A stretch of 64,000 nt of DNA, taken from contig NC_011027.1 in the NCBI RefSeq assembly GCF_000020505.1, forward strand, positions 976,001-1,040,000, given 5' to 3'. The position numbers and the translations under genes were made by a program. Below, piece by piece: positions 52,197-63,578 of this stretch. Position 1 is the first letter of the stretch. Each line of letters begins with the position of its first letter. Origin of the DNA: Chlorobaculum parvum NCIB 8327. Its GTDB lineage: Bacteria; Bacteroidota; Chlorobiia; Chlorobiales; Chlorobiaceae. Under the pieces are notes generated by a model that ran no database searches, was not told the origin of the DNA, and saw only the letters and a program-made list of their open reading frames with translations.

Positions 52197-53786
52197 ATGA
52201 ACACCGCTCCATTTGCCTGCCCGTTCCGTGAACATGTTGATCTTTCGACGGTAGGCTACTACGCGATCGGCGGAGAGGCCAGATGGCTGCTTTTGCCTCG
52301 AACCGTTGCGGAACTTGCCGCCGCTCTTGCGCAGTGCCGTCAGCATGCGATTCCGGTGATCATTGCAGGAAAGGGCACCAACATGCTTTTTTCGGATGAG
52401 CATTTTCCGGGAGCGGTGATTTTGCTTGAATCGATGAAGCGCATCATCCAGCTTTCAGAAAGCCTCTTTTTCTGCGAAGCGGGGGCTGAGAATAGTGATG
52501 TCGCCCTGCGGCTCCAGCAGGCGGGGAGAACAGATGGAGAGTGGCTTTACCGGCTTCCAGGCACCATTGGCGCCACGGTGCGCATGAACGGGCGTTGCTA
52601 CGGTCAAGAAGTTTCTGCTGTAACCCGGAGTGTGGTGACGGTCGGGCTTGACGGTACGGTTTGCTTTCGGGAAGGCTGCGAGGTGTTTCTCGGTTACAAG
52701 CACACCAGCCTGATGCAGAGTCCCGAGATCGTCGTCGGAGCGCTGCTCGAATTCGACAGCGAGGACGATCCAGAGGCGATCGGAAGGCGAATGCAGGAGT
52801 ATTCGGATGACCGCGAGGCGAAGCACCAGTTTGATTATCCAAGCTGCGGCTCGACCTTCAAGAACAGCTATGAAGCCGGACAGCCGAGCGGGCAGATTTT
52901 CGACGCTCTCGGCTTCAGGCGGCGGCGCGAGGCTGGGGCGCAGGTTAGCGAGCACCACGCCAACTTCATCTTCAACACCGGCGGCGCGAAAGCTGTCGAT
53001 GTACTTCGCCTTGCCGCAGCCATGCGCACCGCCGCCAGGGAGCAGGTTGGAGCTAATCTCGACCTCGAATTGCACTGCGCCGGCCTTTTCGAGATGGCGT
53101 TGCTCGACCAGTGCGGCATCGCCTCGACGCCAGAGCCATCACGCCCCGGTTACGGCTGGACTGGCCTCTTGCGCTTTCCGGATTTCGGGGCGGCGGTGTT
53201 CCCCCGAACGCTCCTCCACGGTCCGATGCTCGGTTACGCTTGTACCGATGCGGAATTTCCGTTCGGCATCACAGTGAGGGTCGAGCAGCTTGCGTCGCTC
53301 GAAGAGGCTCGGCGTGCGCCCGAAAAACCCTTTATCCGCTGGACGACTCGCGACGAGAGCGGCACAGCTTTTCCGCTTCGACCCGATGCTCCGGCAGGCG
53401 CATTCGTTGATCGCTTGTGGGCATTCAGCGTCTCGGAGCTTTTCATTGGTGGTAGAGATGGGGAAGGCTATCTCGAATTCGAGTTAACGCCCGAAGGCCA
53501 CTGGGTAGCGCTTCGTTTCGACGCCCCGCGCCACCGCGCCGCCGGGCACGAAACGCCTTCGGAAGCGCTGTGGCTAGGCAAGGTGCAGCCGTTTGCTGGT
53601 GACCAAGGCTTCGGCATGGAGCTCAGTTACGAAATGCTCGAACCCTTTATTCGTGATGGTTCCTTGCACCTGCAATGCGCTGCTAGCCTCGGAGGCGGGC
53701 GCTACGGCCTGTTCCCGTGGTGGTGCGACGAAGGCAAGCCCGATTTCCACCAGCCAGGCCGGTTCTGCGAGTTGGCGTTGGCGTGA
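52197..53786 (+). CDS. MurB-like flavoprotein with C-terminal extra domain
   Basis: A 529-aa protein whose first ~300 residues match UDP-N-acetylenolpyruvoylglucosamine reductase (MurB). FAD-binding GKGTNMLFSDEHF (~58), GTIGATVRMNGRCYG (~122), YPSCGSTFKN (catalytic Ser region, ~214) and LDLELHCAG with the late catalytic Glu (~291) are present. The conserved arginine of the GYRxS motif is lysine here (FLGYKHTSLM, ~165). Residues ~310-529 form a separate domain with WAFSVSELFIGGRDGEGYLEFELT, similar in style to DOMON/CBM9-like sugar- or heme-binding beta-sandwiches. It may be a second MurB or a repurposed paralogue; I do not assign a gene name for that reason. Confidence 0.75.
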   Translation: MNTAPFACPFREHVDLSTVGYYAIGGEARWLLLPRTVAELAAALAQCRQHAIPVIIAGKGTNMLFSDEHFPGAVILLESMKRIIQLSESLFFCEAGAENSDVALRLQQAGRTDGEWLYRLPGTIGATVRMNGRCYGQEVSAVTRSVVTVGLDGTVCFREGCEVFLGYKHTSLMQSPEIVVGALLEFDSEDDPEAIGRRMQEYSDDREAKHQFDYPSCGSTFKNSYEAGQPSGQIFDALGFRRRREAGAQVSEHHANFIFNTGGAKAVDVLRLAAAMRTAAREQVGANLDLELHCAGLFEMALLDQCGIASTPEPSRPGYGWTGLLRFPDFGAAVFPRTLLHGPMLGYACTDAEFPFGITVRVEQLASLEEARRAPEKPFIRWTTRDESGTAFPLRPDAPAGAFVDRLWAFSVSELFIGGRDGEGYLEFELTPEGHWVALRFDAPRHRAAGHETPSEALWLGKVQPFAGDQGFGMELSYEMLEPFIRDGSLHLQCAASLGGGRYGLFPWWCDEGKPDFHQPGRFCELALA

Positions 53787-53790
53787 GTTC

Positions 53791-53815
53791 GTAGGGGCGG
53801 GTTTTACACCCGCCC
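53791..53815. repeat. REP-like palindrome after the MurB-like gene
   Basis: GGGCGGGT (53795-53802) and ACCCGCCC (53808-53815) pair perfectly around TTTAC, preceded by GTAG. It shares its GTAGGGGC-type flank with the elements at 8136 and 63463. It may also stop transcription from the two converging genes. Confidence 0.6.
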
Positions 53816-53889
53816 ATCAAATACAACAAATTCGCTCATGCGCAGAATATGAAGCGGCTTGTTTGCTTTCAGACCAGCACCATTCCGGC

Positions 53890-54882
53890 TCACCTGACTT
53901 CCCCAGTTACTGGATGCTCAAACTCGCGGTCTCTCTCTCTTTGACGGTTTTCGGCCATTGCCAGATACTGCCTAGCTGTATTGTTGCCGGGATCAAGCCG
54001 GAGCGCCTCATTCATTTTTTCAATAGTCAGCTCAAGCTGACCTTTGTTATAGTAGGCAATGCCTGTTCGTACATATTCGTTAATTCTTCTTAACGCATCA
54101 TTACTCTGATCGATGTAACTCTGAGCAACCTGATTACCGGGGTCAAGCGTTAAAGCATCTCTCATATGTGCTTTTGATTGCTCGTATCGTTTTCTCTTGT
54201 AGGATGAAATCCCTTCAGAGATAGCATTGTCGATCTTTTGCTGCCGTTGCAATTCTGTGGAATTATCTGGCTTTATCTCGATTGAAGGCGGTGAGTATGG
54301 CGGTGATGTTACAAAAACCGCTGGTTGTTCTTTAACAGGTGCAGGAGGCGCCACTTCTGCCGGTGGTGCAGAAGGAGCTGGTTCTACGGCAGATGGAGGT
54401 ACCGGAACCGGGTCTAGTGGCGTTGGCTGTTTGTCTGTAAAAAGACTTTTAACAAAAAGGAGGCCAATAATCATAGCGACAGCAATGCCAGCATTGCGTA
54501 CGAATGGTGAGAGCGGCGGCGGTACAGGCTTCTGGCCCTCTTTATTCTTCCAACTATCATCTTCGTGTTTATGAGCTTCTGCCGTTTCATACTCCGGTAG
54601 ATTTATCTCCAATTCCGAAGAGTTCAACTCTTGATTTTGAGGTATAAGCTCAGGCCTTGATGACACAACCTCAGGTATAGAGGGTGTAACTTTAGGTTCA
54701 GATACTTCTTCTGAGGGCTGAGGCCGCTGAGGCCGCTTAGGCTGCGGGGGCTCAGCCGGTAGTACAGGAGGCGCTGCTATAATCTCCTGTAGCTCTCCAC
54801 AGAAAGGGCAATATTTCACAGGGCCGGAAATAGTTTGGCCACAGTGCTTACAGTTGAAGGGAAAATCGTTTTTCAACAGCAT
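53890..54882 (-). CDS. zinc-ribbon, membrane-anchored TPR protein
   Basis: A 330-aa protein. The N-terminal zinc ribbon has two CxxC pairs (FNCKHCGQTISGPVKYCPFCG, the cysteines at about residues 10, 13, 25 and 28). Next comes a Pro/Glu/Ser-rich linker, one membrane helix (AGIAVAMIIGLLFVKSLF, ~132-149), a Pro-rich spacer (PPAEVAPPAPVKEQP), and a C-terminal TPR array (residues ~205-320) with YEQSKAHMRDALTLDPGNQVA and LELTIEKMNEALRLDPGN. So a cytoplasmic metal-binding head and a TPR region are joined across the membrane. It is the last gene of the tubulin-like block on the minus strand, after a 148-nt gap with a hairpin. Confidence 0.8.
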   Translation of the reverse strand: MLLKNDFPFNCKHCGQTISGPVKYCPFCGELQEIIAAPPVLPAEPPQPKRPQRPQPSEEVSEPKVTPSIPEVVSSRPELIPQNQELNSSELEINLPEYETAEAHKHEDDSWKNKEGQKPVPPPLSPFVRNAGIAVAMIIGLLFVKSLFTDKQPTPLDPVPVPPSAVEPAPSAPPAEVAPPAPVKEQPAVFVTSPPYSPPSIEIKPDNSTELQRQQKIDNAISEGISSYKRKRYEQSKAHMRDALTLDPGNQVAQSYIDQSNDALRRINEYVRTGIAYYNKGQLELTIEKMNEALRLDPGNNTARQYLAMAENRQRERDREFEHPVTGEVR

Positions 54883-54964
54883 GAAATATCATCATTACAG
54901 GATTATGCACGTGTAACTGCAAATACTGATTTTTGTCTTTCCTGGCGCAACACCTGAATTTCAC

Positions 54965-55023
54965 GCAGCGAAGCCGGATCGGACTGCATCAGTTCATACG
55001 CAGGTCTGATCCGGCCTCGCTGC
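54965..55023. repeat. long imperfect intergenic hairpin in the tubulin-like block
   Basis: GCAGCGAAGCCGGATCGGA (54965-54983) pairs with TCTGATCCGGCCTCGCTGC (55005-55023), 17 of 19 positions. There is no T-run on either side, so it is not a simple terminator. It may reduce expression of the TPR gene relative to the tubulin-like gene, or be a dispersed repeat. Confidence 0.6.
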
Positions 55024-55030
55024 TCTCCCC

Positions 55031-58000
55031 TCAGTCCAGCAGAGGCGGACCGTCATTGAGTGCCGGAGGCGTTTCAAAAAATACTGATAACTCGGGTACT
55101 TCACTGGCAGTCAACCAGCTCGGCATACCTTTCTTCCAGACCTTGGTCGTTTCTGTCAACTGGCCCATACTGATCATCTGGAGCAATTTTTCTTCCATGA
55201 ACGGGCCTGCCGCATGGCCGTCCACAGCAACATGAAAACAGAGCTGCGGCCGTATGGGTTCCGGTTTGCTCACCTGTATTTCAGGTTCGGCTTCCTGTTT
55301 CCGACCAGTAAAAGACCAGCCATCATCAAAAACATCCAGTTGAAGCACTTTTTTTGCCATGCATTCCCTGAAGTTCACCTCGTATTCATAAACGTCTTTG
55401 ACCGAACCGGGCAGCTCTGCAGTCCATTCATTCAGCTTGTCGCTCGCTTCCCGGCGAAGGCGTTCGGCGTTCGCGCTTCCCGCCTTGGCCTCCAGACGGC
55501 CAGCCCACTCCTCGACAAGTTTTTCACAAATCAATGTCGGAAACTGTTTTTTATCAACATCGGTACCATCAAGCCTGAGCGTTGCCACAGGATAGACAAA
55601 GTTCACATAATAGTCGAGCAGTGCGACAAGCATCGCCAGTTGCTCCAGAGATGAGAGCTTCTCGATATCCAGGGACACCTGCTCCGTAATGATGGAACGG
55701 TAAGCGTCCGGTATTCCCATAAGCCGCAGCTTTTTCTCATCTCCGATCGCCTGGGTCCTTCCCTTTTTCGACACGCTGTACAAACCCGCGTCCGCACCGT
55801 TTTCCGTTCTTCTCAACACGCCGAGAGCTACGGCAAGCACAAACAATTTGAAATCTTCAGCACGGTTAGCCAGTTCATCCAGAGTCAACTCTCTCGCATG
55901 GACAAACGTACTGGTGATCCGATGTGTATGCACCGGTATTTTATCCTCGCTTCTGTAACTGACATACCATTGGTCAAGCGACTTGATCGACGGAATGGGG
56001 AGCCCGGAAAGTTCGGTATAACAGATCAGCTTTCCTGGCGCGTCTATTTCGACGAATCCAACCTCTTTTCTGGTCATCATCGTAACAGTAGGCAACTTGC
56101 TCAAGAGTTGCTCTCCGTATTTCTCCCTGAATTTCGAAGAGTCTTTCACGCCGATGAAGCATTTGTACTGATCGTTAGGATTCTGCGGTTTCAGATATCC
56201 GTCAACTTTAGCCGCAATCCAGGGCATGGCACGCTGAAAAAAGTCAGAAAAAAGCATTGACAGATTCTGATGCTGATCCAAGGCGGCAAACAACGGATTC
56301 TCTTCATCCTGCATTTCATCGTCGCCGATAAGATCCAAGGCACGGTTCCTCAGCTTTCCCAAGAGTTCGGAACGCCCATCTTCATCTTTGAGCATTTTAA
56401 ATAGCTCCTGAGTGCCGCCGAAATCTTCAAATGCTTCTTCCGCCCACTGACGGGCCTGGCTTGGCGGAAGCAACTCCAGTTCATCGATCTGGCTCTTCGG
56501 AGCGGGAAGAACGAAATACATGGCGTGATTCTGTTTCATCGCCTCGTTTGTCAGCGCGATCTGCTCTTCAGCACTTTCTATGATAGCGTTAACCAGACCC
56601 CGACCCTCTTGCAGCTCACCGATAAAGCCGCTCCAAACCGGTTCGCCATTTTCATCGGTACCCTGCTGCTTGCCGAGCGCCTCCGAAAGATCATGAATGA
56701 GTCTTGCTGCTTCCCTGCTGGCGGCAGCATAGAGGTGGTACCGAACGTAGAGTCTGACGGCATCGGATATTTGCTTGAGCTTCATCTCGGATTGAGACTG
56801 CGCTCCAAACAGCTGTCCTCTTGCTTGCTGGAGGTGGTCTTGCAGATTACGCGTTTCATCTTTTTGTAAAAATCCCGAAAGATCCTGAAACCAGTTTGCG
56901 TTCTCTTCAAGAACCCTGACAAGACCTGTGTTGGCGTTCTCCAGCCTGTCCTTGATCCTGCCGATTAGCTCTATGGTATAATCAAGTCCTCCCCGCTCCT
57001 TGTTGTCAACGCGCATCCACAGCGCCTTGATCAGACCATGCTCCCGATTCGGATCGAGCAGTTCGGCCAACAGCTCTCTTCTTCTCTTCTGGATAGCGTC
57101 TACATGCAATCCGCTGCCAGTCTCGACATCCTTGAAGGTGTCGTGATTGATGTTGGTAATGGCCTCTGAAATTTTTTCAGCCCATCCCTTGTAATTACCG
57201 CCTACGCGTATCTCCTCGAAACGATCCGCGATTCTCTTTTCGATATCATCGAATCGTGATATGCCATTGACCCTCAAAAGCTCGTTTACGATGGGATATG
57301 ATGTTCGCTCTATCCCCTTTCTGTACATTTCGTTCTTGAGTGAAAAATCGTAATCGATAATTTCGTTTTCCACCGAAAGATGCATTCTCGAAGCCAGCAG
57401 TTCATCTCGTTCGCCATCGGTTGGCATGTTGCTTTTCGGATCGTCGAGTGCTATGCCAAAAAATGCCTTAAGCATTCCGTTGACCTGACGGTACAATACA
57501 ACATTCTTTTTCTGCTCAAGCTGCGTATCGATGATTGCCTGCCCAAACGTTGAATAGGCACGGGAAAATGTGATGCTCATATCGCCATAGGTCTCCCTCG
57601 GCAACAGCATCTCATATGGTATGATTTTGTACTGATTCTGGTTGACCGATACTGAGCGTTTCCGATTGGCAAATACCGAGGTCGAATAATCCTCGAAAAG
57701 GGTATCGGCCACCATATCATAGAGATCCATGACTTCACCGGTCTTGGCTCCGGCAAGATTTGTCGTATCAATCAGATAGACGTCGCTATACGGTGAATTG
57801 GGCATGTTCCGGGGCACCTCGCCTGCGGCCCATTGTTTGATATAGCGAGATCCCTGACGCATGCAGGTTTCCAGTTCCATGAGTGCCGCATAGGTATTCG
57901 CCTCAGTACGGGTCAGGCCCGCCCCCTTGTAGCCGGATGGCAGCAGCAGCACAAGATTGGTCGTTACCCCCTGATTGGCTACATCGTTCCCGATGATGGT

Positions 58001-58657
58001 TGAGAGATATCCAAGATCAAGAAAACTTCCCGATCCGGTTCCACCAGCTGTAGACGCCACCACAACGATTTTCAATGCACCCGTCTGGACATTCAGACCC
58101 AGTCGCTTCTGGGCTGTTCCTGACTTGACATTGTCAAGAAGAGAGTCACATTTAGTTCTGATAGCCCCTTTGATCTCTTGATATTTATCAAAGAAAAACA
58201 GTCTTGAAAGCGCCCGTATCTGACCAGCACCCTTCTCAGGATCGATATTGAGTTCGTTTATGGTTTTTCTCGACAGCGGAAACCATTCGCGTATCAGCGG
58301 ATAACAGTCAAGAGCCTCCTCGCTTTTTATGTACTGATTGAGGTCAAGCTTTTTAACCAGGCGTTCTGACTCTTTGAATTTTATTTTGTTCGACAGGATA
58401 TCGTTTTTCTCCGCTTTTCCCTGTTCCGTCTCGAACGCGCTCAGGTCGATCTGCAGGAATTCCGCAAACGGGAATTCGGTCAGATTATCTATCCTGACAG
58501 CCTGACCGGTTCCTGAGCCCCACAGATTATTGATGATACGCCGTCTTATGCGCCATAAGACCTGAGCTCCAGTGCCACCAAGTGCGATGAACAGTGTCGG
58601 GACAACCTCCGTAAGAGTTACCTCCGTCTTTTTGCCAACTTTCAACTCTTCTACCAT
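55031..58657 (-). CDS. large tubulin/FtsZ-like protein with C-terminal GYF_2-like domain
   Basis: A 1208-aa protein. The N-terminal GTPase-like part has PTLFIALGGTGAQVLWRIRRR (~15-35, read as FIALGGTGAQ and VLWRIRRR) and VVVASTAGGTGSGSFLDLGYL (~200-220). The AGGTGSGS segment corresponds to the GGGTGTG/S tubulin signature. A long middle region is helical. At about residues 1137-1195 a GYF_2-type domain is seen: FHVAVDGHAAGPFMEEKLLQ and TTKVWKKGMPSWLTASEVPE. There is no membrane segment. It belongs to the large tubulin-like family associated in other bacteria with vWA-domain proteins and predicted membrane remodelling. The neighbouring vWA-like gene supports this. Confidence 0.85.
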   Translation of the reverse strand: MVEELKVGKKTEVTLTEVVPTLFIALGGTGAQVLWRIRRRIINNLWGSGTGQAVRIDNLTEFPFAEFLQIDLSAFETEQGKAEKNDILSNKIKFKESERLVKKLDLNQYIKSEEALDCYPLIREWFPLSRKTINELNIDPEKGAGQIRALSRLFFFDKYQEIKGAIRTKCDSLLDNVKSGTAQKRLGLNVQTGALKIVVVASTAGGTGSGSFLDLGYLSTIIGNDVANQGVTTNLVLLLPSGYKGAGLTRTEANTYAALMELETCMRQGSRYIKQWAAGEVPRNMPNSPYSDVYLIDTTNLAGAKTGEVMDLYDMVADTLFEDYSTSVFANRKRSVSVNQNQYKIIPYEMLLPRETYGDMSITFSRAYSTFGQAIIDTQLEQKKNVVLYRQVNGMLKAFFGIALDDPKSNMPTDGERDELLASRMHLSVENEIIDYDFSLKNEMYRKGIERTSYPIVNELLRVNGISRFDDIEKRIADRFEEIRVGGNYKGWAEKISEAITNINHDTFKDVETGSGLHVDAIQKRRRELLAELLDPNREHGLIKALWMRVDNKERGGLDYTIELIGRIKDRLENANTGLVRVLEENANWFQDLSGFLQKDETRNLQDHLQQARGQLFGAQSQSEMKLKQISDAVRLYVRYHLYAAASREAARLIHDLSEALGKQQGTDENGEPVWSGFIGELQEGRGLVNAIIESAEEQIALTNEAMKQNHAMYFVLPAPKSQIDELELLPPSQARQWAEEAFEDFGGTQELFKMLKDEDGRSELLGKLRNRALDLIGDDEMQDEENPLFAALDQHQNLSMLFSDFFQRAMPWIAAKVDGYLKPQNPNDQYKCFIGVKDSSKFREKYGEQLLSKLPTVTMMTRKEVGFVEIDAPGKLICYTELSGLPIPSIKSLDQWYVSYRSEDKIPVHTHRITSTFVHARELTLDELANRAEDFKLFVLAVALGVLRRTENGADAGLYSVSKKGRTQAIGDEKKLRLMGIPDAYRSIITEQVSLDIEKLSSLEQLAMLVALLDYYVNFVYPVATLRLDGTDVDKKQFPTLICEKLVEEWAGRLEAKAGSANAERLRREASDKLNEWTAELPGSVKDVYEYEVNFRECMAKKVLQLDVFDDGWSFTGRKQEAEPEIQVSKPEPIRPQLCFHVAVDGHAAGPFMEEKLLQMISMGQLTETTKVWKKGMPSWLTASEVPELSVFFETPPALNDGPPLLD

Positions 58658-58691
58658 ATTCGATTCTCTTTTAAAGATTCAAGCAGATATT

Positions 58692-59093
58692 TCACTTTTT
58701 GGCAGACATAACGACTGCAAGTACGAAACAAAGAATCATTGCTATTGATAACGGAATGACCACAAACATGGTCAGAAAAATCTTTCCGAAAAGAGCGACG
58801 CACAAAATGGCAGATGCAAAAAACAGCCCACCGAACAGTCCCCAGCCAGCCATAGCAGCATTATTCGGAGAGCGCTTCATGGCGGGGCCTACCAGATATC
58901 CAACAAAAGCGTTTCGGATGAAAAAAAACACAACAGACAGGATCAGGAGCAACCCGACCCCCATGAGCACCTCTTTGGTGCTCGGGCCGGTCAGCGCCTC
59001 GATGTCGCCTGAAATTTCTTGTAAACTTCCAAGCTCCGAACTATCCTGCCCCGATTTCACCGGAGGCAGTACCGATGCGTTCTTGTCTTCCAT
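58692..59093 (-). CDS. small three-helix membrane protein of the tubulin-like block
   Basis: A 133-aa protein with an acidic, Ser-rich cytoplasmic-looking N-terminus (~45 residues) and three hydrophobic helices: EVLMGVGLLLILSVVFFFIR, AGWGLFGGLFFASAILCVALF and FLTMFVVIPLSIAMILCFVLAVVM. The first two are joined by a polar loop with VGPAMKRSPNN. No family is recognised. It lies between the tubulin-like gene (34-nt gap) and the vWA-like gene (43-nt gap), and may be the membrane platform for the complex (inference). Confidence 0.75.
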   Translation of the reverse strand: MEDKNASVLPPVKSGQDSSELGSLQEISGDIEALTGPSTKEVLMGVGLLLILSVVFFFIRNAFVGYLVGPAMKRSPNNAAMAGWGLFGGLFFASAILCVALFGKIFLTMFVVIPLSIAMILCFVLAVVMSAKK

Positions 59094-59136
59094 AGGTATA
59101 CTCTTTTTGTATTGTTTTGCTGTTTTAAGTAAAAAA

Positions 59137-60630
59137 TCACATTAACCGTATGGTACAATTGGCATCCTTGTCTTTGATGATTTGCGGCTGTCCGATGCCG
59201 CGCTTCAGCATTCCGACCCGTTTCCCGTTCGCGTCATTGATGACCTGTTCGTGAAACATTTTCAGGGCAAAGTTCTTCTGAACACCGTCGACTGAGACCT
59301 TGTAAACCGTTTCTCCCTGCAACATCATCATTCCGAAAACAGCACCGCCAAGAGCTATAAAGATGATACCCCCAAAAACGAATAGCGGCCATGAAGGATA
59401 GAAAACCTTCACCAAGACAGATTGCTCGGTCAGAGAATTTCTTGAACTTTCGCCAGGGCTGAAGATATCCGGCAAAGGGTCTCCCGGAAACAACTCTGAC
59501 ATCTGCTTGATAAATCCTTTTGAAATGGCAAGTTTCTGATCTGACACTTCGAATTTTATCTTGCCTGTCGTTGTGTAGCCGGATTTGAAAATCACATTTG
59601 GGCTCCATATAGATGGTATCGGCGGTACTGATATAGTTACTGTCAGTTGAGGGGATACATCGCCTGCCTTGATAGCCAATTTGTCGATCACATCGTTTTT
59701 TGTTTCGATCCCGTTGTTATCGTGGTTTAACCCAGATGATATAGCAACTTTGGCGGATTGAATATCGTATGGATAAAAATCGTTTCGCAACTGCCCGATA
59801 ATCCGGGCTGCTTCAGGCCGTCGTGCCGCATTAAAGCTAAGCATTAGTGTTTTATTCCCAACAATACTGGCCTTGACACCTTTGCCTCCCTGAACCCTGA
59901 GTGGCATGAAGGTCACGGCGTCGGCGTTCAGCGGCTTGAGTCGAGCCACCCTTGCTCCGAACGGAACATTGCCTTTAAGCATTTTCTGCAAAAGTTGGTC
60001 GGCATCGTCGCCGTAGGCCATTGCGTAGATCATCAGGCCATTGGCAGTATAATTTCCCGTAACCCCTTTTACCGCCATTTGATAGGGAAATGCGACTATT
60101 CTTTTGATTTGATCGGAATTTTGCAGAAATGCATAAAACTCCTTGTTTTTCTCAATTGTCTCAGGGCTATTGTCCGGACTGTTTTTATTGTTCGTGATAA
60201 TCCACAAAATACAGGGTTGACCAGCGGAGTACTGCGTGATCGCTCCGACGATAGCTTCCTTGAAATCCGTATCAGCATAGGTCGTTTTACCAGGCTTGCG
60301 AACCGGCATGATCGATTGTATTGCCGCATTAACCTTGTTCTGATCGCTTCCGTGATAAACCATTTTTGGAGACTTATTATCCTGGATGCTCTGATTGAAA
60401 CTCGCCACAACCTGATCGGTTTGGCCGTATTTGGCAATTCTTTCAGCAATCACTATGCCGAGTTCTTTAAACTTGGATGAGCGATCCTCGTAAAATGGTA
60501 GCATCCAGCCCGAATTCTGTATCAGGTATATCTGCTTGACTGGCGTTTTGGCCATCAGCTGTACAGGTCGTGATATCGATGCAAGAACCAGTATCAAAGA
60601 CAGCCTGGATATGTTACGGATAGCACCCAC
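59137..60630 (-). CDS. vWA-like membrane protein of the tubulin-like block
   Basis: A 497-aa protein. I start it at the GTG at 60628-60630, 2 nt after the upstream stop and preceded by GGAG at the right distance. The ATG at 60669 would overlap the upstream gene by 37 nt. The N-terminus is a signal-like helix (ISRLSLILVLASISRPVQLMA). A vWA-type Rossmann region follows (KQIYLIQNSGWMLPFY; TYADTDFKEAIVGAI; PCILWIITNNKNSPDN), where the MIDAS DxSxS is degenerate (QNSGW). Beta-rich domains follow, then one membrane helix (WPLFVFGGIIFIALGGAVFG, ~425) and a short cytoplasmic tail. It is probably periplasmic and anchored. Confidence 0.75.
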   Translation of the reverse strand: MGAIRNISRLSLILVLASISRPVQLMAKTPVKQIYLIQNSGWMLPFYEDRSSKFKELGIVIAERIAKYGQTDQVVASFNQSIQDNKSPKMVYHGSDQNKVNAAIQSIMPVRKPGKTTYADTDFKEAIVGAITQYSAGQPCILWIITNNKNSPDNSPETIEKNKEFYAFLQNSDQIKRIVAFPYQMAVKGVTGNYTANGLMIYAMAYGDDADQLLQKMLKGNVPFGARVARLKPLNADAVTFMPLRVQGGKGVKASIVGNKTLMLSFNAARRPEAARIIGQLRNDFYPYDIQSAKVAISSGLNHDNNGIETKNDVIDKLAIKAGDVSPQLTVTISVPPIPSIWSPNVIFKSGYTTTGKIKFEVSDQKLAISKGFIKQMSELFPGDPLPDIFSPGESSRNSLTEQSVLVKVFYPSWPLFVFGGIIFIALGGAVFGMMMLQGETVYKVSVDGVQKNFALKMFHEQVINDANGKRVGMLKRGIGQPQIIKDKDANCTIRLM

Positions 60631-60632
60631 GA

Positions 60633-62228
60633 TTATTTCTCCGTTATCTCGATTGGCCAGGAAAAGCAATGATTATTTTCAGGAAAATGCACGTAGAGCA
60701 TCTTGTTATAGATAAATGCGCGTATTTCAGGCAGATGCGCAAGACTGATCCTGAAGGAGCTACCTTTTTCAGTTTTGACCGAACCGGAAAGCTCTTCTGC
60801 AAAAAGTGGTCGCTCAGGCACTCCGGCACCTTCCAGCACCAACCTGACTCTCGTACTCACTGGTAAATCCGTTTTATAGAAATGCTCGCTGAAGGCTCCC
60901 AATGCATCGCGGCCTGCCCATTGATCCACCTTCGCTAACAAAACCATCCCGTTTTCGCCGAATTGCAAAAGCGGATATCTCAACTCTTCCTGAGGGCGCG
61001 TGTTCGTATTAAGACCGTTGATATCATTCCAGTAATCATCGACCCATGAAAAACTGCTTCGGCCAGTGGTAACAAACTCGCCAAACTCGATCTTCTGGGA
61101 ATCGACAACTTCGTCACCATCGATTTTGATAATTTTGTAGATCTCGCCGTCTCTAACTTCTTTGTCTTTATCTTTACACAGTTGCCAGAACCCCCCTTTC
61201 AAGCCATTCGTGCGATACGGAGGTCCAAGCTCGATCAGTGCCGTTGCAGGATATTCATCAGTTTCCCAAGCCCTGAACTTCCACTGAACGCTCGATGAAA
61301 ATTCATCGACGATGACGCTCACGTAACCACCACGGCATGACCAGTACGCGGTCTTTTTTGCCGCATGGAGATAGGGAATACCGAGATAAGCCTGCTGGTC
61401 AGCACGTTGCGTCAACTGCGTCATGACCTCGACACGGTCTGACACCGAAGGACAATCAAGCCATTCTGATTCTCCTTCTTTTTTGTAAGCCATGGCGAAA
61501 CAGCCATCCTTCTCAACAGGCGCAAAAATATACTCTGCGATCCGGATGGGGCCCCCGATCGATCTGCCCACATTTCGACTGACCTGGATACTGTTCGATG
61601 GCCAGTCAAACGTAACCCATAACGGTCCGTCATCTGTTGGCAGGCACAGCCCCGATTCAGCTTTGTCAGTTGCCATTGACCATGACCAACCTGGAAGCGA
61701 ATCTTTGCCGACGCTGGCAGGAATGCGGCTCCATCGTTTTTCTTCATGGTTTCGATACACCCACAGCAGCCCCAAGTCACGCTGCAGCGCAAGAAGCATG
61801 CGCTGTTTGGCGCCGAGTTTCAGTGAACAGAAAGCAAAAATCCCGTCCCTTCCTGGCAACGGGAAAAGCTTTGCCTGATGATCTTTGGATATGCAAACGT
61901 CCTTGATAGTATGAGGATGATGGCTGACATCAGGGCCCTGCATGATTTTCAGGCCAGTGCCATCTCCGTAAGGAGGTAGCCAGAGATTGCAAGGCTCCTC
62001 TTCGAGACTGATTAATTTTGCCTGACAAAAAGGACAATACTGGAACTCAGGAGGATATTTCTGTCTGGCGCAATCAAGGCCGTTATCTGGATGAAGCTTT
62101 GCGCCCACCAGAAGTTCGATAGGCGCAACCTGAACGGGATCACAATTCTTTCCAAAAATGCTTTGTATGGTGAATCTCTTTTTAAGCTCATCCTGCACCC
62201 AGATTGTCTCCTTGAATCTCCACAACAT
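60633..62228 (-). CDS. zinc-ribbon beta-rich protein of unknown function
   Basis: A 531-aa protein with CxxC-type pairs near the N-terminus (LDCARQKYPPEFQYCPFCQAK, cysteines at about residues 54, 66 and 69). After this a long series of beta strands with aspartate and tryptophan at regular spacing suggests a seven-bladed propeller-like fold (GRDGIFAFCSLKLGAKQRML, LGLLWVYRNHEEKRWSRIP, KKTAYWSCRGGYVSVIVDE). There is no signal peptide or membrane helix. It ends 2 nt before the vWA-like gene start, implying coupling. I recognise no family; a scaffold or sensor role is inference. Confidence 0.75.
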   Translation of the reverse strand: MLWRFKETIWVQDELKKRFTIQSIFGKNCDPVQVAPIELLVGAKLHPDNGLDCARQKYPPEFQYCPFCQAKLISLEEEPCNLWLPPYGDGTGLKIMQGPDVSHHPHTIKDVCISKDHQAKLFPLPGRDGIFAFCSLKLGAKQRMLLALQRDLGLLWVYRNHEEKRWSRIPASVGKDSLPGWSWSMATDKAESGLCLPTDDGPLWVTFDWPSNSIQVSRNVGRSIGGPIRIAEYIFAPVEKDGCFAMAYKKEGESEWLDCPSVSDRVEVMTQLTQRADQQAYLGIPYLHAAKKTAYWSCRGGYVSVIVDEFSSSVQWKFRAWETDEYPATALIELGPPYRTNGLKGGFWQLCKDKDKEVRDGEIYKIIKIDGDEVVDSQKIEFGEFVTTGRSSFSWVDDYWNDINGLNTNTRPQEELRYPLLQFGENGMVLLAKVDQWAGRDALGAFSEHFYKTDLPVSTRVRLVLEGAGVPERPLFAEELSGSVKTEKGSSFRISLAHLPEIRAFIYNKMLYVHFPENNHCFSWPIEITEK

Positions 62229-62273
62229 CAGCTATAAAAGGATAATAATGGTTGATTTCAAACCTCTGCGTCT

Positions 62274-62990
62274 TTAGTTAACGGCGTAAAAATTCATAAC
62301 GCCATCAACTTTCACAACCTGGATTTTACGCTGTACCTTGTATGGCTCTCTGCCTTCAATCTGAACTATTGCCGTGTGCGTGTAAATACCCTCTTTAGCG
62401 TTTCTTGGAAGCGTAAACTGAATACCTGCATCGACACCGCCACACTGCCTTCTCATCGTTCGTTTCATATCATTTGTCCGAGTTGTCAAGCCATCTGGAT
62501 CAGTAAGTATGTTGATCTCAACAACATCAACCGCACTGAGATTACTATATTTCGGAATTTCCAACTGATACTTTGTTCCAAGCCACACTTGCTGCCCTCC
62601 TCTGAGCACCCTTAGCGGTCGATTGTTGGTGTCGGTAATAGTAGGGACTATACTTGTTACACGTGGAGGCATGCTGGCCGAAGATGGCTTTGCAAGCACT
62701 GGCTTCTCCCTGTAAATCTGGGCCGAAGACTTATACTCACGCGCCCTAATCTCTCCAACTATATATCCGACGATTAAACCTGCAGCAGCAGCCTTAATTC
62801 CAGTCCTCAACGCTTTATTAACGTCACCAGTTGCTAAATAACTAGCCAAAAAGCCCCCTAAGCCAGCTGCAGCGCCGGTCTTAACTGCAGTCTTGCCAGA
62901 ATCTGGAGCTCCTGCCTGATTAGTAGCAGTACAGCCGGACATTGATACCAAATATGACAAAAGGGTGATAACTATAATGCTCTTTTTCAT
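62274..62990 (-). CDS. glycine-zipper lipoprotein, first gene of the tubulin-like block
   Basis: A 238-aa lipoprotein. Signal peptide MKKSIIVITLLSYLVSMSGC ends in a lipobox (VSMSGC, Cys at 20). Residues ~38-85 hold a glycine-zipper-like Ala/Gly-rich pair of helices (TGAAAGLGGFLASYLATGDV, TGIKAAAAGLIVGYIVGEI), able to insert into a membrane. The C-terminal half is a beta-sandwich-like domain ending in VDGVMNFYAVN. It precedes the zinc-ribbon gene by 45 nt. It may connect the system to the outer membrane or the periplasm (inference). Confidence 0.8.
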   Translation of the reverse strand: MKKSIIVITLLSYLVSMSGCTATNQAGAPDSGKTAVKTGAAAGLGGFLASYLATGDVNKALRTGIKAAAAGLIVGYIVGEIRAREYKSSAQIYREKPVLAKPSSASMPPRVTSIVPTITDTNNRPLRVLRGGQQVWLGTKYQLEIPKYSNLSAVDVVEINILTDPDGLTTRTNDMKRTMRRQCGGVDAGIQFTLPRNAKEGIYTHTAIVQIEGREPYKVQRKIQVVKVDGVMNFYAVN

Positions 62991-63462
62991 ACCTGTATTT
63001 TTTGTATTTATAATTCTTCACTCTTAAAATCCGTAATCAAAAAACGCACTTTTTTGTTGATCATTATATTCGCGGAACACTTTTTGATATTAATTTAAAT
63101 AACATATCAAAAAGTAAAAAGAGTAATACTCTCGGAAATAAAAAAAGAATACTCTTGTCGTTGCAAAAGGAATACTAAATATGTTTTTTCCAAGGAATCA
63201 TGGCATTAAGGGTAATGTTTATAACCAATACTAATATGTACTCGGCCAAACTAATGCCTTGACGTATTTTAATAAAAATAAGCACTTTGCCAAAATTTTT
63301 TTATTTTTTTTCCGAAAGGGCACCGCTAAAAAAGTAATTTTTTCTCGTTCTGAACCATTAATCACAGATCTTCAAAAACAGATAGTAAGTTGCCCGTCAA
63401 ATTTTCAACGTCCTGCAGATTTCGCCAACGCTGATGCCGTTATTATGACTCATCTTTTTTGC

Positions 63463-63504
63463 CATCTTTGTAAGGGCGACCGGCCGGTCGCCCTTACAAA
63501 GATG
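63463..63504. repeat. 42-bp perfect palindrome (REP-like)
   Basis: The 42 nt are a perfect inverted repeat: CATCTTTGTAAGGGCGACC, then GGCC at the centre, then GGTCGCCCTTACAAAGATG. The core GTAAGGGCGACC resembles the palindromes at 8136 and 53791. A homodimer binding site or cruciform is possible. Confidence 0.85.
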
Positions 63505-63544
63505 CACGGACGGAGTGGACAATATTGCGGGAAAAACGGAGAAT

Positions 63545-63578
63545 AAAAAAGGGAGCGAAAATGCTCCCTTTTTTTTGT
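63545..63578 (-). terminator. bidirectional terminator downstream of the oxidoreductase gene
   Basis: GGGAGC (63551-63556) and GCTCCC (63563-63568) form a 6-bp stem with A-runs on the left and eight T on the right, so it can terminate on both strands. It lies just past the minus-strand gene stop at 63603. Confidence 0.85.

Follow-up and report, generated by a model that had tools for sequence, protein, structure and literature searches.

What kind of machine is encoded by a block of six genes built around a large tubulin-like protein in a green sulfur bacterium, and how did it get there? The block is found in Chlorobaculum parvum NCIB 8327, whose 2.29 Mb genome is a single contig (NC_011027.1); a match to the FMO antenna protein (E=1.2e-214) marks it as that of a green sulfur bacterium. 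The window analyzed here is the whole stretch of 64,000 nucleotides (nt) from position 976,001 to 1,040,000 of that contig, and all coordinates below are those of the window. Six intact open reading frames lie on the minus strand between 53,890 and 62,990, with the transcription order g1-g2-g3-g4-g5-g6. They are located where an initial annotation of this DNA had placed them; the gap range that it gave, 2-148 nt, was inexact, the spacing from g1 to g6 being 45, -37, 43, 34 and 148 nt, where -37 is an overlap of g2 with g3 that results from a TTG start of g3. Scans for promoters and terminators gave results at or below the chance level. The answer developed below, to which we give slightly less than an even chance, is that the block is an FtsZl1 operon of proteobacterial type, acquired laterally, whose products form a single GTPase-driven assembly that spans the envelope and most likely deforms or locally stabilizes it.

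The product of g5 (55031..58657, minus strand as for all six genes; 1208 aa) identifies the system. A profile search recognizes a Tubulin_2 domain (PF13809) at residues 22-391 (57485..58594; E=1.2e-51), and both a T1 loop (LGGTG) and a T4 loop (AGGTGSG) are present. Across aligned relatives, which match over the full length at ~28-67% identity, T4 reads AGGTGSG or SGGTGSG and T1 reads GGTG or GGSG, with small variations. Thus, the tubulin-like identity given to this protein in the initial annotation stands; what was overlooked lies at the C-terminus. Residues 1142-1190 (55088..55234) form a GYF_2 domain (PF14237; E=8.7e-16, 57.9 bits versus a curated cut-off of 25.8), followed by a polyproline tail, ETPPALNDGPPLLD (55034..55075). 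GYF_2 is matched in 39/40 C-termini of the family, and 46 of 50 relatives have PPP among their last 25 residues. Eukaryotic GYF domains bind proline-rich peptides. Since GYF_2 is co-conserved with the polyproline tail and with a proline-rich linker in g6, the sequences suggest that g5 molecules cluster with one another and attach to g6 through GYF-polyproline contacts.

Relatives of parts of g5 are seen elsewhere. In Pseudomonas sp. MF4836 a second, shorter g5 paralogue directly follows g1 (L037:15371-17800); its GTP-binding loops are altered (GNTG, AGSYGSG), a GYF-like region and a proline tail are kept, and it is possibly a pseudo-GTPase partner. Reading frames of 823 aa similar to this short paralogue are present in two other Pseudomonas genomes (G470 and G472). 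SPFH-domain proteins on Vibrio plasmids (H3-H5) match the GYF_2 region, an adaptor domain thus common to another membrane-scaffold family. The profile of the gliding-motility protein GltJ (NCBIfam NF033761) also aligns weakly to this region (E=0.031), far under its cut-off and as a likeness of one domain only.

Do the six genes belong together? Homologues of all six were found by iterative profile searches, and a profile search of genome contigs using a three-sequence alignment as the query returned at least 80 loci. The alignment query was needed (a contig scan with a single protein gave no match); all locus counts are minimum values, and the loci searched include a disproportionate number from close species. 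For 41 loci of the operon's clade, at least 4.5 kb upstream and at least 2.5 kb downstream of g5 are available. In these flank-complete loci, g2-g3-g4-g5 are retained in 40 and all six genes stand in the fixed order g2-g3-g4-g5-g6-g1 in 31. A set that recurs in 31 of 41 loci is far from a chance block; thus, the six genes form a real, conserved module, the conserved neighborhood that the initial annotation had set as its check. About a dozen proteobacterial genera carry the set, including Pseudomonas, Stenotrophomonas, Acinetobacter, Rhodanobacter, Azoarcus, Massilia, Duganella, Janthinobacterium, Rhodoferax, Variovorax and Paraburkholderia. The spread is patchy, with 7 carriers among 299 Pseudomonas genomes. 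Only in the window does g1 come first in the operon, a cyclic change of the order seen in Proteobacteria, where g1 is last; at alphaproteobacterial loci, g6-like or g1-like genes are nearby but displaced. No additional neighbor family is common to the loci beyond one genus or a few related genera, and no relative was found among phage records.

The route by which the operon reached its present host can be read from the surrounding DNA and from the g5 phylogeny. None of the 20 other genomes sampled from the genus contains Tubulin_2, which occurs in 2 of the 61 genomes of that search, that of the window included; within the phylum it is found in 12 of 394 genomes at E<=0.001, nine of which score over the curated cut-off. 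In a sibling genome (G012, L119), the alignment to the window stops at 53787 and starts again at 63574, with ~147 bp between. This empty site delimits an inserted segment of ~9.8 kb (53787..63573, with no strand assigned), which is AT-richer (45-52% GC) than the 14 kb on its left side (50-63% GC). In an IQ-TREE phylogeny, the g5 of the window is sister to that of a Hydrogenophilales metagenome-assembled genome (support 100/100, 68% identity), and the pair falls inside a Beta-/Gammaproteobacteria clade (support 99/98). The Hydrogenophilales contig (PFJY01000098, L026), the nearest relative among the matches listed, carries all six genes, with g1 after g6, a g6 that lacks the strict double CxxC, and a g5 that is 67-68% identical; gene by gene, identity to the window is 67% for g5, 52% for g3, 48% for g4 and 46% for g2, while g6 and g1 barely align. 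Because of the lack of copies in 20 congeners, the empty sibling site, the GC difference and the g5 tree, the operon is judged to be laterally acquired, and its sequence relationships indicate that it most likely came from a proteobacterium.

The insertion site itself (53787-63573) is a small variable site beside murB. It is nearly empty in L119, and in another sibling green sulfur genome (G014, L116:6861-9467) the matching site contains a TIR_2-NB-ARC-TPR gene. The neighboring murB (52197-53786) has a C-terminal extension of ~230 residues that is conserved across the genus and not present in matches from other families of the order.

An acquired segment of this type might represent a chance cluster, or DNA in decay, without a joint function in the green sulfur host. 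The move of g1 to the other operon end, the strong divergence of g1 and g6 from L026, and the presence of the operon in only one species of the genus sample speak for such an origin. However, every one of the six reading frames is intact, about a dozen genera have the genes side by side, and the sequence motifs of the family are retained, making this explanation very improbable.

What, then, do the partners of g5 look like? The product of g3 (59137..60669; 510 aa) is predicted to contain a signal peptide, a periplasmic vWA-type domain, a beta-sandwich region, one transmembrane (TM) helix and a small cytoplasmic beta domain. Its AlphaFold2 model (predicted local distance difference test score, pLDDT, of 88) has a signal helix, an alpha/beta domain with the strand order of vWA (residues 45-232; 59974..60537), beta-sandwich segments, a TM helix at residues 427-451 and then the small beta domain. 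Acidobacterial relatives of g3 give weak matches to the VWA_2, VWA and VWA_3 profiles (best E=1.3e-3, under the curated cut-off). When the g3 profile alignment A2 is compared using hhalign with alignment A5, composed of relatives with a canonical metal ion-dependent adhesion site (MIDAS), the probability is 100% and the alignment covers 481 columns, a result that is in part built in, as several members are in both. A comparison of g3 with the Mg-chelatase-like vWA protein of the same genome aligns the first MIDAS strand and helix only (10% probability), and a PDB search using the g3 profile gave no match. From the topology of the model, the weak VWA matches and the alignment to canonical-MIDAS relatives, g3 is probably a periplasmic vWA-type protein, in agreement with the vWA-like anchored protein of the initial annotation.

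The metal site of this domain has been replaced. In all 51 clade proteins, the first MIDAS loop is Q[ND]SGWM (QNSGWM in the window, residues 51-56; 60502..60519) and Asn takes the place of the third-loop aspartate, so that the clade form reads Q[ND]SGWM...TNN, with S/T-x-N in the third loop. In contrast, acidobacterial and other outgroup relatives retain DxSxS...TD, and D56, S58, S60, T133 and D162 are invariant in seven relatives outside the clade. Judged by this comparison of clade with outgroup, the pseudo-MIDAS is a fixed replacement rather than drift.

The remaining four proteins would complete an arrangement that spans the envelope. No family scored over the curated cut-off for g1, g2, g3 or g4 in the family profile searches, and NCBIfam gave no assignment. 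The product of g2 (60633..62228; 531 aa) lacks a signal peptide and is modeled as a cytoplasmic beta-propeller (pLDDT 79, predicted TM-score 0.85); the PDB matches listed by Foldseek are nearly all beta-propellers, and the family is conserved. A zinc ribbon as a family trait of g2 was rejected, since 49 of 53 homologues (split fragments counted) show no CxxC among their first 130 residues. Consequently, the "two zinc ribbons" of the initial annotation reduce to the one in g6, itself degenerate in part of the g6 family. The product of g4 (58692..59093; 133 aa) is, as had been proposed, a three-TM protein. Its family is present in 55 loci at E<1e-30, and 50 of 53 members have a short N-terminal motif containing LP, either F-x-L-P-x-P or S-x-L-P-x-P. 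The description of g6 (53890..54882; 330 aa) as a zinc-ribbon/TM/TPR protein also holds: a CxxC-x10-CxxC-type ribbon at residues 11-28 is followed by a proline-rich linker, a TM helix and a TPR_2 match (E=2.9e-8). The linker between ribbon and TM helix contains 20% proline in the window and 10-45% in nearly all g6 proteins scored; a strict double CxxC is seen in 27 of 41 proteins labeled g6, and the clade loci contain members of the g6 family. Finally, g1 (62274..62990; 238 aa) encodes the glycine-zipper lipoprotein that the initial annotation described, with a lipobox, a weak YiaD_Gzip match at residues 10-81 and a beta-rich C-terminal part. In E. coli, the residue after the lipobox Cys directs lipoprotein sorting. 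Wherever the lipobox pattern is matched in the g1 family, that residue is A or T, never D, which is compatible with sorting to the outer membrane under the E. coli rule.

The predicted topologies therefore place g5 and g2 in the cytoplasm, g3, g4 and g6 in the inner membrane, and g1 on the envelope as a lipoprotein. They allow a trans-envelope arrangement, so that a machine reaching the outer membrane, as the initial annotation imagined it, is plausible. In the mechanism we propose, g2 would serve as a cytoplasmic adaptor for g5, the tubulin-like GTPase, whose GYF_2 domain would bind polyproline in the tails of neighboring g5 subunits, in the g6 linker and perhaps in the LP motif of g4. In this way g5 would gather at the inner membrane, on a complex made up of g3, g4 and g6. 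On the periplasmic side, g3, with its replaced metal site, and the TPR region of g6 may engage the lipoprotein g1 at the outer membrane. The state of the scaffold would then depend on the GTP-dependent assembly of g5, the most likely output being an envelope that is deformed or locally stabilized. These contacts, the GTP-driven assembly and the remodeling output are inferred. A more specific proposal, which we consider unlikely, is that the operon encodes a distinct cytomotive machine of diderm bacteria. In it, GYF-polyproline contacts would cross-link a g5 polymer to itself and to its membrane anchors, and a metal-free pseudo-MIDAS vWA protein and the TPR protein would connect this polymer with the glycine-zipper lipoprotein of the outer membrane, allowing it to move or remodel the envelope from the cytoplasmic side.

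Several observations weigh against the proposed assembly. Ten of the 41 flank-complete loci have no detected g1, g6 or g3 in place, and a related Azospirillum locus (below) has no g3; thus, not every part is indispensable. The g3 of the window itself gives no VWA profile match. When the complete g3 model was compared with the PDB using Foldseek, the matches were of beta-domain and integrin type and included no vWA protein; the vWA assignment is thus based on topology and on the relatives. Proline binding by GYF_2 is extrapolated from eukaryotic GYF domains. Makarova and Koonin (PMC2875224) could not recognize the T6-H7 elements in FtsZl1 proteins, and g5 filaments are therefore not certain; a reviewer in the same paper doubted that a cytoplasmic FtsZ-like protein could work with periplasmic partners. 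In addition, our literature search found no experiment on any member of the operon.

A reviewer of PMC2875224 argued from FtsZl1 neighborhoods for transport or signaling. Applied to the operon, g3 and g1 would act as sensors or carriers of a ligand in the periplasm, and g5 and g2 would form an energized or signaling platform in the cytoplasm, without membrane remodeling. Substrate-binding proteins are indeed present at other FtsZl1-type loci examined, and the g3 model has folded parts on both sides of the inner membrane. However, the six proteins include no channel, substrate-binding protein or recognized signaling enzyme, and no seventh partner is conserved across loci. We regard this alternative as quite unlikely.

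How does the operon compare with systems already described? The main text of PMC2875224 describes FtsZl1 genes with vWA, kinase, GTPase and OmpA neighbors, together with their lateral spread, and predicts that the systems with vWA genes remodel membranes. This kind of system is thus already known, and the operon is best read as a variant of it, a connection first drawn in the initial annotation and upheld by the Tubulin_2 match and the linked vWA-type g3. Both have a large Tubulin_2 protein with an alpha-helical C-terminal part, a linked vWA gene with a signal peptide and TM segment, further membrane proteins, and a patchy, transferred distribution. Genes for a protein kinase, a second GTPase or OmpA, which are frequent but not obligatory in the described systems, are missing from the operon: none was found among the six proteins, no such family is common across the loci, and OmpA occurs only near the Azospirillum locus. 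In this respect the partner set differs, as had been claimed. The DxSxS motif, intact in most vWA proteins according to that paper, is degenerate in g3. The GYF_2 domain with its polyproline tail, the beta-propeller and the glycine-zipper lipoprotein go unmentioned in its main text, nor are the six-gene proteobacterial form, the pseudo-MIDAS or the transfer into a green sulfur bacterium found there, although the supplementary tables may list parts. No paper describing the operon was found in the literature search. Two other tubulin loci were noted in passing: a different Tubulin_2 gene in the same bacterial family, followed by a gene for a zinc-ribbon/TM/phosphate-binding-like/OmpA-like fusion protein (L015:2331-6913), and an Ignavibacteria-type locus with a small signal-peptide membrane protein nearby whose layout is like that of g4 (L016:11130-11642).

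A second comparison leads to the main rival of the envelope-remodeling reading. Kaur et al. 2020 (PMC7159879) classed GAP1-N2 systems that have tubulin and membrane vWA genes as conflict systems. These share with the operon a tubulin-family gene beside a membrane vWA gene, and GYF domains occur in some of the GTPase-centric systems as well as in g5. However, no P-loop GTPase or FNIII family is present among the six proteins, so the GAP1 GTPase and the FNIII-repeat protein are lacking, and the tubulin versions are described in Firmicutes and Actinobacteria. Another related version is that on Azospirillum plasmid NZ_CP039644 (L013:7424-21493), in which, as in L071, g3 is missing and homologues of g2, g4 and a GYF-bearing g5 are adjacent and in the order of the operon; around this version lie OmpA, DUF4384, PEGA and caspase-family genes. 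Were the operon an anti-phage or stress system, triggered GTPase assembly would act through g4 and g1, which would either damage the envelope or seal it, a mechanism put forward for GTPase-centric tubulin/vWA conflict systems. Besides that precedent and the caspase-family genes on the plasmid, the patchy distribution (7/299 Pseudomonas genomes, 0/20 congeners) and the use of the same chromosomal site by a TIR-NB-ARC-TPR gene in one sibling, the site being nearly empty in another, argue for a defense role. Yet the six proteins have no PADLOC match at E<=0.01 and include no nuclease, toxin or other effector family; the Janthinobacterium and Pseudomonas copies are mostly in shared chromosomal contexts with housekeeping neighbors, and the overlap with the TIR-NB-ARC-TPR site rests on one sibling. 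Defense is, on this balance, a doubtful explanation, and an envelope-remodeling assembly remains the preferred one.

FtsZl1 proteins have been known since 2010, but the literature search found no functional study of them save for some cyanobacterial mutants, the only mutants of a Tubulin_2 gene encountered being those of Synechocystis, where the gene context is different (PMC9880817). The six-gene operon is a minimal, self-contained FtsZl1 version that exists in culturable species of Pseudomonas, Janthinobacterium and Acinetobacter. With its three sequence handles (the GYF_2/polyproline pair, the pseudo-MIDAS and the g4 LP motif), it makes the long-standing proposal that these systems remodel membranes directly testable.

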